Positions 9,770 through 64,000 of a stretch of 64,000 nucleotides of DNA are shown in pieces. A program made the position numbers and the translations under genes. The stretch's first letter is position 1. Every line of letters begins with the position of its first letter. The notes beneath the pieces were generated by a model. That model saw nothing but the letters and a program-made list of their open reading frames with translations, did no database searches and was not told the origin of the DNA. Source of the stretch: a bacterium (lineage in GTDB: Bacteria; Zixibacteria; MSB-5A5; WJJR01). Where the stretch lies: the NCBI GenBank assembly GCA_021813505.1, contig JAKAKI010000063.1, forward strand, positions 1 through 64,000. Reading direction: 5' to 3'.

Positions 9770-9845
9770 GATTCTTGGGAGATGGATCTGTCCATGATAC
9801 TCCCCCTGACCAATCCGGCTTGTGAGATTGTAGACGATGTAGTTT

Positions 9846-9915
9846 GGGAGGGCGAGGCTCCCGCCGAGCCTCGCCCCCTCGTGAGAAGGTGGCTCGGCAG
9901 GAGTCTCGCCCTCCC
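9846..9915. repeat. Family A 70-bp palindromic element, copy 2
   Basis: GGGAGGGCGAGGCTCCCGCC and its inverted end GGAGTCTCGCCCTCCC, with a diverged centre. It lies between the guanylyltransferase and the TsaC-like gene. Confidence 0.92.
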
Positions 9916-9957
9916 ACGTCCTGCCAGATTCGCGCCTTATTGCCGGCACTGACCACG

Positions 9958-29197: not shown

Positions 29198-29285
29198 GAG
29201 AATTCGGCGAGTTCGGATTGTTGCGATTCGCCCAATCGTAAACTGGATGACAGAGGAACTGATAATCGTGGCCTAATATGGCATT

Positions 29286-29355
29286 GGGAGGGCGAGGCTC
29301 CGGCCGAGCCATGGTTCGGCGCGGAAAAGAGGCTCGGCAGGAGCCTCGCCCTCCC
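29286..29355. repeat. Family A 70-bp palindromic element, copy 3
   Basis: Ends GGGAGGGCGAGGCTCC and GGAGCCTCGCCCTCCC. It lies in the nusA-infB gap, so it is presumably transcribed as part of the operon and could form a hairpin between the two messages. Confidence 0.93.
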
Positions 29356-29449
29356 TCTACCAGGTAATGTCACGGAGATGGACGACCGATTCTAGGGGAA
29401 GCACTGAGGCCCGGAGACGACACGCACCACGGAAGGCTGTTGATTCGAT

Positions 29450-40512: not shown

Positions 40513-40582
40513 GGGAGGGCGAGGCTCCTGCCGAGCCATGTTTCCGCGCGGAAATACGGCTCGGCAGGAGCCTCGCCCTCCC
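40513..40582. repeat. Family A 70-bp palindromic element, copy 4
   Basis: Ends GGGAGGGCGAGGCTCC and GGAGCCTCGCCCTCCC; centre TTTCCGCGCGGAAA is itself palindromic. It starts 10 bases after the GNAT stop codon. Confidence 0.94.
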
Positions 40583-42098: not shown

Positions 42099-42123
42099 GG
42101 GCGCCCCTGTGTGGGCACCCGTG
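42095..42123 (+). repeat. Family B palindromic repeat, half element
   Basis: GTAGGGGCGCCCCTGTGTGG followed by GCACCCGTG, left-end orientation. It overlaps the last bases of the DUF512 gene stop codon (TAG), so the gene ends inside the element. Confidence 0.78.
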
Positions 42124-42536
42124 TCGCGTGTCGAAGAATCACAAGTTCGAACACAACGGGAGACTCCATTCATTGGTGGCCCACCAGGAGCGCCTTCGCC
42201 GAAGGCGAAGACCCGGATGGTGGGGAGCGGCAGGATCGCTTTTTCAGAAACGTCCCCTTCCCTCGAAGAACACTGCCATCCGCATACTCTCGGTGTCTCT
42301 ACTCTCCGATCGACTCAAAATCGAATCGCCGATGTAGGGGCGGCCCTTTGTGGCCGCCCGTGTTCTCGTGCGAGATCGCCAGTACGTGCCTCGTGGTCAC
42401 CTTCCCTCTCTGCTCCGGGGATCGGGGCGGCTACATAGGGCCGCCCCTACGCTCCCTGATTGGAACTCCTCACAACACTCCCCGTGTTCTCCCGTCCCCA
42501 ATTTGCTATGTTCCCCCCATCGCCAAGGGAGCCCCC
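42124..42536. other. Gene-free stretch holding family B copies
   Basis: It contains a complete-looking family B pair at 42334-42451 and otherwise no credible gene; a frame running into the aldolase is a repeat shadow. GCCTTCGCCGAAGGCG at 42191-42206 is a further small palindrome. Confidence 0.6.
42334..42451. repeat. Family B element, full pair with divergent centre
   Basis: Left end GTAGGGGCGGCCC-TTTGTGGCCGCCC (42334-42359) and right end GGGCGGCTACATAGGGCCGC ending CCCTACG (to 42451), about 65 bases apart. The layout matches 49200-49273 with a longer spacer. Confidence 0.82.
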
Positions 42537-43580
42537 ATGAAAACCATCGACCTCCGTTCCGACACTGTCACTCGCCCCACTCCGGAGATGCGCGCCGCCA
42601 TGATGGACGCACCGGTGGGGGATGATGTCTTTGAAGGCGATCCAACCGTCAAGGCGCTTGAAGCCAAGGTCGCCGCTTTGTTCGAGAAGGAGGCCGCCCT
42701 GTTTGTCGCCTCCGGCACAATGGGCAATCAGATCAGCCTCTACACCCACGAGCATCACCGTGGCGACGAACTAATCTGCGACGACGAAGCCCACATCGAT
42801 TGGTACGAGGTCGGCGCGGCTGCGGCGCTTTCCGGGCTGCAACTGCGTCCGATCGCCGCGCCGGGTGGAATACCTGATCCCGAACGCATCGCCGCCGCCA
42901 TCCGTCCACCCAACATTCACCACCCGGTCACGTCGATCATCGCGGTGGAAAACACCCACAACCGTGCCGGGGGTGTCGTCGTGCCCCTGGAAATCATGCG
43001 CCTGATTGCGGCGCTGGGTCTCGAGAACGGAATCAAGACGCATCTCGACGGCGCCCGCATTTGGAACGCCGCTGCCGCGACTGGTGTCCCGCTATCGGAA
43101 TGGGGAAGAGGCTTCGATTCGATTTCAGTATGCTTTTCGAAGGGGCTTGGAGCGCCAGTCGGCTCTGCCGTGATCGGCACCAAGGATTTCATCACCCGGG
43201 CGCGCCGCACTCGAAAGTTGTTCGGCGGCGGCATGCGCCAGGTCGGCATTCTCGCCGCCGCCTGCATCTGGGCCATTGATCACCAACTACCGCGCATGGC
43301 CGATGACCATCGCCGCGCGACAACTCTCGCAACCAGTATTGCGGATATCCCAGGCATCGCTCTCGTTCCCGATCCTCCGCCGACGAACATCGTCGTCATG
43401 GATATCGCCAAAACCGGCCTCACACCCGATCAGGCGCTGGGACAACTCGCAAAACGCGGCGCGCTTTTGACCCCCTTCGGCCCCACTCGCATCCGCGCCG
43501 TCACCCATCGCGACGTCGACGACACCGATATCGAAACCGCCATCGGTGCGATCCGCGAGGTGTTTGTGAAGCAGAAGTAA
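42537..43580 (+). CDS. ltaE: Low-specificity L-threonine aldolase
   Basis: PLP enzyme splitting L-threonine (or allo-threonine) into glycine and acetaldehyde. The 347-aa product begins MKTIDLRSDTVTRPTPEMR, the family hallmark, and has the PLP-binding Lys202 in CFSKGLGAPVGS, VENTHNRAGG and THLDGARIWNA. ATG 42537 is certain from the hallmark; the 142-codon upstream extension of the frame is made of family B repeats. No linked pathway genes. Confidence 0.96.
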   Translation: MKTIDLRSDTVTRPTPEMRAAMMDAPVGDDVFEGDPTVKALEAKVAALFEKEAALFVASGTMGNQISLYTHEHHRGDELICDDEAHIDWYEVGAAAALSGLQLRPIAAPGGIPDPERIAAAIRPPNIHHPVTSIIAVENTHNRAGGVVVPLEIMRLIAALGLENGIKTHLDGARIWNAAAATGVPLSEWGRGFDSISVCFSKGLGAPVGSAVIGTKDFITRARRTRKLFGGGMRQVGILAAACIWAIDHQLPRMADDHRRATTLATSIADIPGIALVPDPPPTNIVVMDIAKTGLTPDQALGQLAKRGALLTPFGPTRIRAVTHRDVDDTDIETAIGAIREVFVKQK

Positions 43581-43912
43581 GCAGATAGTCAGGTAATCGC
43601 GCGGTTCAGCACGTGATGAAGAACCCGGTTCCAAGTCTAGGTGCCACGGACAAGCAGATTCTCCGGCTCTTTGGAGAATCTGCTTGTCCGTGTCTTTTTC
43701 TCGCACTCCGAAGAAAGACACGGACAAGGAGGACCGAGCATAAAGCCGCTCGGTCCTCCTTGTCCGTGGCACCCGCGTGATGTTTCTTGGGTAGGTGAGC
43801 GAAGAAGATGAGGAAGCAACTTCCCGCGTCACCGAGCTAAAGCGCAGTGTTGGCTGATGCCCAGGTGCATTCCGACACCGAGCTGATGCACGGTGTTTTT
43901 GGAGTTCGATCC
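43581..43912. other. Gene-free stretch with a cloverleaf palindrome
   Basis: Contains the 134-bp element 43640-43773. The remainder has no recognisable signal. Confidence 0.6.
43640..43773. repeat. 134-bp compound palindrome (family H), cloverleaf-forming
   Basis: Four contiguous perfect stems: A 43640-43654 with 43759-43773 (15 bp), B 43655-43664 with 43673-43682 (10 bp), C 43683-43697 with 43714-43728 (15 bp), D 43729-43739 with 43748-43758 (11 bp). No base is left between stems, so the DNA or RNA can form an exact four-way junction. CACGGACAAG or its complement occurs four times, in the A and C arms. It looks like two hairpin units of one repeat placed in tandem. Confidence 0.93.
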
Positions 43913-44686
43913 ATGAAACCTCCCCACCTCCTCATCCTTGGTTCGTCCTCCGGCCTGGCCTCGGCCCATCGGGCGTCGTCGTCATATCTTTTGGATCTCG
44001 ACACCCAGGGAATCATGATCGATTGCGGCGATGGCGCCACCCGCAACTTTCTGGCCGCCGGATATCGGGCGGAGTGGGTCAGCGAGATCGTGGTCTCGCA
44101 TACCCACGCCGACCACATCTGCGGCCTCCCGTACTTTGTCCAGCAGCGCCATCTGGCGAAGTCCAGTAAACCTCTGACCATCTATTGCGCCCCGGAAGGT
44201 ATCGACGCTCTCAAAAATCTGCTCGTCCTCGGCCACCTTTATCCGGAATGGCTGCCGTTTGACATCCGCTGGGTGCCGATCACCCCGCGCACGCCATGGG
44301 ATACTTGCGGGATTCAGCTAACGGCATTCCCGACCTCGCATCTCAGTCGGCAACGGATCTTTGCCCCGGAGCACGGTTACCCCGATCCGGGCGATTGCTA
44401 TGCGTTCCATGTTGATATCAACGGCCGCTCGCTGGTCTACTCATCCGATTTGGGCAGCCTCAACGACTTAAATTCAGTGCCACAACCGATCGACTGGCTG
44501 CTGATCGAAACCACACATGTACCATTAGATGAGCTCTGGCCTTGGGCCGAGACACACCGGGTCAAGCGAATCATCCTGACCCACTTGTCCGACGAGTTCG
44601 ATGAAGCCCAAATCGCGTTGGCCGGAAAATTCCCATCCATCTCTGCTGTCGTGGCACACGACTTGATGTTGATCGAATTGAGTTAA
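43913..44686 (+). CDS. MBL-fold metallo-hydrolase
   Basis: A 257-aa metallo-beta-lactamase-fold protein with an RNase Z/AtsA-like zinc site: HTHADH at 63-68, TSHLS and a later His-rich segment LTHLSDEF, plus VYSSDLGSL. The N terminus is LLILGSSSGLASAHRASSSY, common in such proteins. Not close enough to a named group to assign a substrate. ATG 43913 is preferred (a TTG at 43847 would extend it). Next genes are in the zapA cluster. Confidence 0.88.
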   Translation: MKPPHLLILGSSSGLASAHRASSSYLLDLDTQGIMIDCGDGATRNFLAAGYRAEWVSEIVVSHTHADHICGLPYFVQQRHLAKSSKPLTIYCAPEGIDALKNLLVLGHLYPEWLPFDIRWVPITPRTPWDTCGIQLTAFPTSHLSRQRIFAPEHGYPDPGDCYAFHVDINGRSLVYSSDLGSLNDLNSVPQPIDWLLIETTHVPLDELWPWAETHRVKRIILTHLSDEFDEAQIALAGKFPSISAVVAHDLMLIELS

Positions 44687-48213: not shown

Positions 48214-48282
48214 GGGAGGGCGAGGCTCCTGCCGAGCCTTTCGTCGCGCGGGAACAGGGCTCGGCAGGAGCCTCGCCCTCCC
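48214..48282. repeat. Family A 70-bp palindromic element, copy 5
   Basis: GGGAGGGCGAGGCTCC and GGAGCCTCGCCCTCCC ends; centre TCGTCGCGCGGGAACA. Lies in the 134-base gap between ymdB and folD. Confidence 0.93.
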
Positions 48283-48315: not shown

Positions 48316-49203
48316 ATGAGTGCAAAAATCATCGACGGAAAAGCCATTGCGGCGCAGATTCGGTCTGAACTCACTGAACGCATTTCAGAACTGAAGCGCA
48401 AGGGCATCACACCGCGCCTGGCGGCTGTGCTCGTCGGTGACGATCCCGCGTCCGCGGTGTATGTCGGAACCAAGAAGAAGACCGCTGATGCCATGGGCAT
48501 GGCGTCCGAAGTGATTGAACGTCCGGCACGAACTTCGTTCGCCGAGCTGGAAACGTTGATTCGAGAACTGAATGCGCGCAAGGACCTCCACGGATATATC
48601 GTGCAATCCCCCCTGCCGGATCATCTGGATGAAGCCGCGTTGGTGGATCTCATCGACCCCGCCAAGGATATCGATGGCTTCCATCCGGAGAATGTCGGCG
48701 CGATGACGCTCGGCTTCCCACGTTTTCTGCCCTGCACACCCGCCGGGATCGTGGAGTTGCTTGTCCGCTCCGGGATCAAGATACCGGGCACCGAAACAGT
48801 CATTCTCGGTCGTGGCAACATCGTCGGCCGGCCGATGTCGATTCTGCTCTCGCTCAAATCGCCCAAGGGCGATTCGACGGTGACCCTATGCCACAGCCGC
48901 ACTCGCGATCTCGCCGCCCACTGCCGCCGGGCCGACATTCTGATTCTCGCCATGGGACGTCCCGAATCGGTCACCGGCGATATGATCAAGCCCGGTGCGA
49001 CGGTCATTGATGTCGGCATCAACCGTGTCGACGACTCATCCACACCCAAGGGCTACCGTCTCGTAGGCGATGCACATTTCCCATCCGTCTCCGAAGTAGC
49101 AGGCGCCATCACCCCGGTCCCCGGTGGCGTTGGCCCGATGACGGTCGCGATGCTGATGAGCAACACGGTGATGGCCGCGGAAGCACAAACGTCACGCCCG
49201 TAG
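48316..49203 (+). CDS. folD: Methylene-THF dehydrogenase / cyclohydrolase
   Basis: Interconverts 5,10-methylene- and 10-formyl-tetrahydrofolate with NADP; supplies the formyl donor used by purN and purH. The 295-aa product has YVGTKKKTADAMGM with the catalytic Lys cluster, the substrate motif GYIVQSPLPDHLDE, DIDGFHPEN, PCTPAGIVELL, and the Rossmann loop VILGRGNIVGRPMS. It ends PVPGGVGPMTVAMLM. ATG 48316, normal length. Confidence 0.97.
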   Translation: MSAKIIDGKAIAAQIRSELTERISELKRKGITPRLAAVLVGDDPASAVYVGTKKKTADAMGMASEVIERPARTSFAELETLIRELNARKDLHGYIVQSPLPDHLDEAALVDLIDPAKDIDGFHPENVGAMTLGFPRFLPCTPAGIVELLVRSGIKIPGTETVILGRGNIVGRPMSILLSLKSPKGDSTVTLCHSRTRDLAAHCRRADILILAMGRPESVTGDMIKPGATVIDVGINRVDDSSTPKGYRLVGDAHFPSVSEVAGAITPVPGGVGPMTVAMLMSNTVMAAEAQTSRP

Positions 49204-49273
49204 GGGCCGCCCTATGTGGCGGCCCGTTGGTCGACGGCGGAGAACCGGGCGGCCACACAGGGCCGCCCCTACG
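49200..49273. repeat. Family B element, complete 74-bp copy
   Basis: Reference copy: GTAGGGGCCGCCCTATGTGG, CGGCCCGT, a spacer (about 20 bases), then CGGGCGGCCACACAGGGCCG, CCCCTACG. The two ends are inverted repeats. It overlaps the folD stop codon (TAG at 49201-49203). Confidence 0.93.
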
Positions 49274-51943: not shown

Positions 51944-52396
51944 GAATGCCGCACCCCGGACACGGCCAGCGGCCCGAGCCGCCGCGGCGGGTCCGCTCAA
52001 CGTCCAGGCGAAGCCACAACCACGTTGGAAACAAAGAATGACTCCCAGCCAGACGGCGCAAGATGAAATTCGAATGCAGGTCAGACTGTGCCACCTATCG
52101 CTGTCAATACACTGCCTCTCGTGACGGGCCAAATCCTCGGAGAGCAACGTCTTTCTGCCTTGCGAGAGATTCACGGCGAATTCGGGAGGGCGAGGCTCTT
52201 GCCGAGCCATTCTTCCGCGCGGAAAAGCGGCTCGGCAGGAGCCTCGCCCTCCCACTAGATACGCCGCCAAATTGTCCGCCCAAAATCCCCTTGACTGGAG
52301 ACCCGCCGGGATCGAAATTGTTGTGATGTGGCCGGGAGAACAAGCCAGGTGAGACCCCCGAGTGATAATTTGGCCCGCGACAGGGAGATAACGGAC
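51944..52396. other. Gene-free stretch, family A copy inside
   Basis: Contains a family A element (52184-52253) and no other recognised signal; the promoters of the tRNA region and of the amidohydrolase should be in this stretch but no clear boxes were found. Confidence 0.5.
52184..52253. repeat. Family A 70-bp palindromic element, copy 6
   Basis: Ends GGGAGGGCGAGGCTCT and GGAGCCTCGCCCTCCC; centre TTCCGCGCGGAAA. It lies upstream of the - strand amidohydrolase. Confidence 0.93.
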
Positions 52397-63875: not shown

Positions 63876-63928
63876 TTTACGAGGACGATAGCCGCAACCA
63901 GAACTTTATGATCCCAAGATCCGCGTGT

Positions 63929-63998
63929 GGGAGGGCGAGGCTCCTGCCGAGCCTCTTTTCCGCGCGGGAGCATCGTTCGGCAGGAGCCTCGCCCTCCC
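63929..63998. repeat. Family A 70-bp palindromic element, copy 7
   Basis: Ends GGGAGGGCGAGGCTCC and GGAGCCTCGCCCTCCC, centre TTTTCCGCGCGGGAGCA; runs to the window edge. The 54 bases before it contain no signal. Confidence 0.93.
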
Positions 63999-64000
63999 AG

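Follow-up and report, generated by a model that had tools for sequence, protein, structure and literature searches.

A perfect four-way palindrome of Zixibacteria as a probable REPIN, enclosed in most copies in an IS1182-type MITE

The 134-bp perfect four-way palindrome (cloverleaf) at positions 43640-43773 of the window, which is the whole 64,000-nucleotide stretch of DNA analyzed here, is, judged from its sequence, a real mobile palindromic unit of the REPIN/RAYT kind without the canonical GTAG/GTGG tag. It is very probably the REPIN of a RAYT gene located on contig C87 of the same genome, because the same two hairpins flank this gene at the position of the middle-arm loop; most copies would be enclosed in an IS1182-family MITE, and the hairpins would have been kept later. 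The unusual part of this arrangement is the composite with the IS1182 MITE.

Structure, distribution and conservation of the cloverleaf

A preliminary description of this DNA had reported an exact four-way palindrome with stems of 15, 10, 15 and 11 bp and four uses of CACGGACAAG; its coordinates, stem lengths and arms were re-checked and are exact, and the stems proved to be one of two possible isomers. The isomers are equivalent because the same 10-mer CACGGACAAG is present in all four junction arms, and each contains 51 Watson-Crick pairs at near-equal energy: -55.8 kcal/mol for the isomer with the 15/10/15/11 stems, and -56.6 kcal/mol for the isomer with two hairpins of 20 and 21 bp and outer and middle stems of 5 bp each. 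In principle, the four-way junction could branch-migrate over 10 bp. The minimum-energy folding that had been proposed as a check gave -58.8 kcal/mol for the DNA fold, compared with -19.0 +/- 3.0 for shuffled sequences (z = -13.4, 0/200). The sequence ACGGACAAG occurs four times in the window, always in the cloverleaf, where 0.49 occurrences are expected. The left half reads GGTGC, hairpin A (CACGGACAAG CAGATTCTCC-GGCTCTTT-GGAGAATCTG CTTGTCCGTG) and TCTTTTTCT, and the right half, after the middle loop, reads GAAGAAAGA, hairpin B (CACGGACAAG GAGGACCGAGC-ATAAAGCC-GCTCGGTCCTC CTTGTCCGTG) and GCACC (Table 1). The two units are inverted, and not arranged head to tail as had been supposed. The earlier statement that no open frame explains the region is roughly right, with the exception that one ORF, a spurious one on the minus strand, crosses the cloverleaf.

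Table 1. Features of the cloverleaf and its surroundings, in positions of the window
Feature	Position	Strand	Evidence or remark
Upstream gene, presumably low-specificity threonine aldolase-like; true start probably internal	42111..43580	+	named by sequence recognition rather than by a family search
Decayed left MITE flank	43608..43639	+	identity 0.73, p about 0.01; borderline in window copy
Left terminal inverted repeat zone AGCACGTGATGAAGAACC, 13/18 to GGGGCGTGTTGAAAAACC	43608-43625	+	
Outer stem 5' half GGTGC, head of left REP	43640..43644	+	(near-)invariant in 27 copies; pairs with 43769-43773
Hairpin A (left REP): arm CACGGACAAG, inner stem CAGATTCTCC, loop GGCTCTTT, 20-bp perfect stem	43645..43692	+	covariation
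T-rich tail of hairpin A TCTTTTTCT, left side of middle arm, terminator-like on + strand	43693..43701	+	
Variable loop of middle arm; position of RAYT gene in C87 parent	43702..43709	.	52% inter-copy identity
T-rich tail of hairpin B TCTTTCTTC, right side of middle arm, terminator-like on - strand	43710..43718	-	
Hairpin B (right REP, inverted): arm CACGGACAAG, inner stem GAGGACCGAGC, 21-bp perfect stem	43719..43768	-	covariation
Outer stem 3' half GCACC	43769..43773	+	pairs with 43640-43644
Right MITE flank, extent expected from homologous length	43774..43823	+	unrecognisable here; identity 0.39, equal to null mean
Downstream gene, presumably metallo-beta-lactamase-fold hydrolase-like	43913..44686	+	named by sequence recognition

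The cloverleaf lies within a 332-bp gap between the aldolase-like and the hydrolase-like gene. The corresponding gap measures 13-14 bp in genomes G002 and G003, and nearly so in G005. In G004 and G006 other palindromic repeats are found upstream of the hydrolase-like gene, which, together with the cloverleaf here, suggests that this gene junction is a repeated landing site. When G001, the genome of a sister species, was searched for the orthologous site, the aldolase gene was not found. The window also contains seven copies of a second dispersed palindromic family, GGGAGGGCGAGGCTCCTGCCGAGCC (1807-1875, 9845-9916, 29267-29374, 40513-40582, 48214-48282, 52184-52253 and 63928-63999), and two of a third inverted-repeat family, GTAGGGGCGGCCC / GGGCCGCCCCTAC (42334-42450 and 49199-49273).

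The earlier suggestion that the palindrome is a mobile unit made of two hairpins of a dispersed repeat was borne out by genome searches. The pattern CACGGACAAG-N-CTTGTCCGTG gave 61 exact hairpins in the 3.9-Mb genome itself, corresponding to at least 40 elements, while the reversed-pattern control gave 0; the same pattern occurred 26 times in G001, the sole congeneric genome, and was absent from 56 other relatives. Nearly all hits were A/B pairs in a fixed order with a spacer of ~26 nt, and 33/33 loci were located outside genes predicted with a home-made gene caller. A covariance model detected full elements in genus g1 (at least 32 in the genome under study and many in G001) and diverged elements only in the sister genus g4 (four), in assemblies of a type (MAGs) that may lose repeat copies. 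The two g4 loci L215 and L216 contain two hairpins and keep the outer stem as GGGTGCC/GGCACCC; their arms are of the CACGCACAAG type, with a G to C change matched in both hairpins. The g4 copies have neither T tracts nor recognisable IS1182 ends. Essentially all copies of the family start with the GGTGC head, and the canonical GT[AG]G tag (GTAG/GTGG) 5' of the hairpin is absent. Single-hairpin derivatives with outer GGTGCC/GGCACC were also observed (L019, L200, L205), as would result if the CTTGTCCGTG repeats, which hairpins A and B carry in direct orientation, had recombined. In a scan of GTDB genomes, matches were found in the congeneric relative, a groundwater Candidatus Zixiibacteriota MAG, and, as a shorter related repeat, in one Phycisphaerae contig. 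The latter palindrome (L051, MAG contig JAUWNI010000021.1, 143-199) has the same head and arm (GGTGCCACGGACAAG) repeated in tandem, and it could reflect either horizontal transfer or a binning error.

The comparison of 27 copies from this genome showed that 94.8% of the cells pair, versus 36-44% in slid controls. The check for compensatory changes that had been called for showed that stem changes are compensated, with 16 pairs changed on both sides against 5.4 in shuffles (0/500). The two refutation checks named in the preliminary description, on other copies and on compensation, thus left it standing. In the count of G-U versus A-C asymmetry, which concerns selection on RNA versus DNA, mismatches were few and some hairpins were mis-phased. 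Pairwise identity between copies was 87-99% in the stems of hairpins A and B (97-99% in the arms) and 93% in loop A, while it was 52% in the middle loop, 42-55% in the flanks and 30% in the sequence outside. Identity to the consensus was 0.93 in the hairpin interiors versus 0.66 in the MITE flanks, a difference seen in 24/24 copies (p about 1e-7) of a set first found by the arms; a flank-based search again mostly gave copies with the core. The difference suggests that the hairpins are selected or maintained, and neither simple recency nor gene conversion of the whole element would readily explain why the middle loop has diverged inside a conserved core. Of the two causes previously offered for the perfect pairing, recent origin and selection on folding, the data are consistent with maintenance and speak against recent origin, because the copies are old and their flanks decayed.

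Templated correction, in which a quasi-palindrome becomes a palindrome by template switching, is a known process in long inverted repeats that would yield compensatory pairs. Pairing kept by this process instead of by selection would fit the fact that old copies such as L020 still pair with altered sequence, but it would not keep the sequence itself, which is ~90% identical in the interiors and loop A versus 42-55% in the flanks and middle loop, and this explanation is quite improbable. A structured RNA gene or riboswitch-like element could account for the very stable RNA fold and the covariation. However, the Rfam search gave no match at the gathering score, so the earlier statement that no known RNA explains the region holds at these thresholds, and the copies occupy over 40 unrelated gaps, in either orientation, and do not keep a fixed position relative to any one class of gene. 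We regard such an RNA as extremely improbable, and neither for a dedicated structured RNA nor for a recombination hot spot, both raised in the preliminary description, was evidence found.

The RAYT element on contig C87

The parent element (G000:C87, L230:739-1538) is 800 bp long and has the order GGTGCC-hairpin A-T tract, RAYT gene, A tract-hairpin B-GGCACC. It begins with GGTGCCACGGACAAACTTGTTTGTCCGTGTCTTTTTT, which is followed by the transposase frame, and ends with AAAAAGACACGGACAAAGAATGACGGCAC-TAAC-GTGCCGTCATTCTTTGTCCGTGGCACC, and the gene occupies the exact place of the middle-arm loop of the cloverleaf. The frame of 212 aa scored 99.7 bits with the NCBIfam model NF047646 'REP-associated tyrosine transposase' (cut-off 80) and also passed Pfam Y1_Tnp, while with the IS200 model it reached 20.1 bits, far short of the cut-off of 55. 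Both hairpins and the GGTGCC/GGCACC ends were found in L230 only among the 10 Y1_Tnp loci of this genome that were scanned, and L230 is without IS1182 ends. In G001 an orthologue of 802 bp is 88% identical over 800 bp, and the right flank is 84% identical. The neighboring genes, named by eye, are presumably those of UvrB and of a carbon starvation protein. The RAYT is thus single-copy and vertically inherited, with an orthologous locus in one sister species, and the other scanned Y1_Tnp loci lack the repeat. Different REP-like hairpins accompany other RAYT-type Y1_Tnp genes, in L235 (G000:C67), L234 (G000:C66) and L243 (G001:C88). The inner stems of the parent are unlike those of the abundant copies: its hairpin A is short, in the form also seen in the g4 loci L215 and L216, and the core of hairpin B is GAATGACGGCAC. 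Hence, the C87 RAYT is assigned as the parent by architecture, arms and ends, not by identity.

Described REPIN systems consist of one fixed RAYT and many inverted REP doublets, with conserved REPs, diverse spacers and compensatory changes (PMC3116915; PMC8049555), and some RAYT subclasses have atypical structures in which the GT[AG]G tag is missing (PMC6006769). The cloverleaf resembles the REPIN/BIME elements of the RAYT (TnpA-REP) proteins of Pseudomonas and enterobacteria (PMC3116915; PMC8049555; PMC6006769) in its inverted palindromes, diverse spacer, extragenic position, many copies and compensatory changes, as well as in having one cognate RAYT that is inherited vertically and bordered by these repeats. 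It differs from them in the missing tag, in the perfect stem of 20-21 bp in each unit, in the two equal isomers forming a branch-migratable junction, and in the location of most copies within an IS1182 MITE. The Y1 HUH transposase and the subterminal hairpins at both ends are shared with the IS200/IS605 family (HUH) and derived palindrome-associated elements, from which the C87 element is distinguished by the scores of its protein, REP-associated and not IS200, and by a locus fixed between two species. In the mechanism that we propose, two inverted REP units with a short variable spacer would form the non-autonomous element of this single-copy RAYT (HUH), which would recognize each hairpin as single-stranded DNA and copy the doublet, as proposed for other REPINs.

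The IS1182-type outer layer

Flank similarity to the MITE consensus indicated that in about 31/50 copies examined the REPIN is placed inside a ~212-bp MITE with IS1182-family ends. Most copies of this genome have in common a left flank of ~31 bp and a right flank of 50 bp, at constant spacing and ending in inverted TGTTGAAAAACC. This 12-mer occurred 125 times, compared with 6 times for the control, and it also bounds other MITEs of 121-215 bp. In the window copy it is the left flank alone that points, at a borderline level, to the MITE layer (Table 1). Full insertion sequences that combine these ends with a transposase of the IS1182 family (NF033551, 357-370 bits, cut-off 270) were found in G001, G003, G007 and G036; the ends of the G001 element, whose transposase scored 357 bits, match those of the MITE. 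An autonomous IS1182 element with these ends was not found in the assembly under study, and L116, its sole DUF772 transposase, was rejected as a helper, since it scores best as IS5-type and its ends differ. A joined-flank search of G000-G003 for an 'empty' MITE without the core gave no contiguous match. In addition, a Y1_Tnp gene was observed ~0.4 kb from an IS1182 transposase gene (L242 and L138, G001:C142).

The insertion sites point to hairpin loops as targets. The G001 insertion sequence (IS) has the arrangement GCCCTGACC-GGG-[IS]-GGG-GGTCAGGGC, in which the 3-nt loop of a perfect palindrome was entered and duplicated. Rejoined flanks of MITEs and ISs folded into hairpins better than permuted flanks (0/2000), and this effect was weaker for the cloverleaf copies with both ends (30/2000). 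Exact 3-bp flanking repeats were present in 9/21 MITEs but in only 1/24 cloverleaf copies. Some of the palindromes hit by MITEs are of the CCCAGGCC/GGCCTGGG type, which also flanks a different RAYT in the same genome. Many more IS1182-type MITEs (L066-L085 and L117; 121, 131, 142, 204-205 and 215 bp) with internal hairpins were observed in palindrome loops, and some have inverted rather than direct 3-nt flanks (TTA/TAA in L068, TCT/AGA in L200).

The constant spacing of IS1182-type ends in most copies, and the many other IS1182 MITEs with internal hairpins (121-215 bp) in this genome, could suggest that the cloverleaf is internal sequence of a plain IS1182-family MITE with no link to a RAYT. 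This is very unlikely, because the same hairpins and GGTGCC/GGCACC ends enclose the RAYT gene at a locus without IS1182 ends, the sister-genus hairpins also lack recognisable IS1182 ends, and the rate of evolution of the hairpins is very different from that of the flanks. The RAYT locus largely refutes the plain-MITE reading, which is retained as a description of the outer layer only.

IS1397 is among the insertion sequences that insert into REP sequences. ISPpu9 (PMC8450116) is another such element, and the case described here is similar to it in that an IS-type element enters the loops of REP-like palindromes, but the transposase belongs to another family and the inserted element itself has as its cargo a REPIN of a different family. 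IS1272, which belongs to the IS1182 family, is known to target hairpins (PMC4923244; PMC5678879). The transposase family of the helper IS and the insertion into hairpins or terminators without sequence specificity agree with the behavior of this family (IS1272, TnSha1; PMC4923244; PMC5678879). In contrast, IS1272 replaces the stem-loop without duplication, while apparent 3-bp loop duplications are seen here in several MITE and IS cases, and the cargo here is a REPIN and not a transposase gene. We propose that one REPIN became enclosed in a ~212-bp IS1182-type MITE in this genus, as seen in most copies and at a borderline level here, that the composite spread via insertion into loops of other palindromes, and that afterwards selection or the RAYT may have kept the hairpins while the MITE flanks decayed. 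A bolder version, which we find conceivable but doubtful, is that the REPIN escaped a low-rate domesticated RAYT as cargo of a hairpin-targeting DDE (IS1182) MITE, and that the doubly mobile, branch-migratable junction was itself selected.

Transcription termination and significance

The inward tails of the two hairpins contain 4.8 and 5.75 T per 8 nt, versus 0.8 and 0.2 on their outer sides. Copies are enriched between convergent genes (11/30 versus 5/56, p = 0.003) and depleted between divergent genes, and in tandem gaps they are closer to upstream 3' ends. Because each hairpin has a T-rich tract on its inner side, the element probably also ends transcription from either side, and the role of a bidirectional terminator is plausible as a side function. 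Such terminator hairpins would shield the RAYT gene from outside transcription. The same observations, together with the conservation of the stems and loop of hairpin A despite flank decay, could be explained by a host-domesticated bidirectional terminator or insulator, which spread and was kept for this function and whose mobility is past. We consider this unlikely, since the two genes around the window copy point the same way and adjoin each other in G002 and G003, a terminator at this place would do harm unless accompanied by a new promoter, and the T tracts are missing in the sister-genus copies; the proximity to 3' ends can also stem from insertion into terminator-like hairpins. The primary reading therefore stays that of a mobile REPIN, because the g4 copies have no T tracts and the copy in the window separates two genes that were ancestrally paired.

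Within the literature collection that was searched, no paper joins REPINs with IS1182, Zixibacteria or a four-way junction. The assignment proposed here would extend REPIN/RAYT systems, with an untypical tag, to a candidate phylum, and it offers a case in which the junction arm lost by the non-autonomous copies is the precise location of the parent gene. The use of palindromes would be nested, in that the loops of hairpins, among them REPs of another RAYT, are targets of an IS1182-type element that carries a REPIN as cargo. These data raise the questions of whether a REPIN may also be spread by a transposase that is not its own, and of whether transposition, transcription termination or a combination of the two accounts for the retention of long perfect hairpins.
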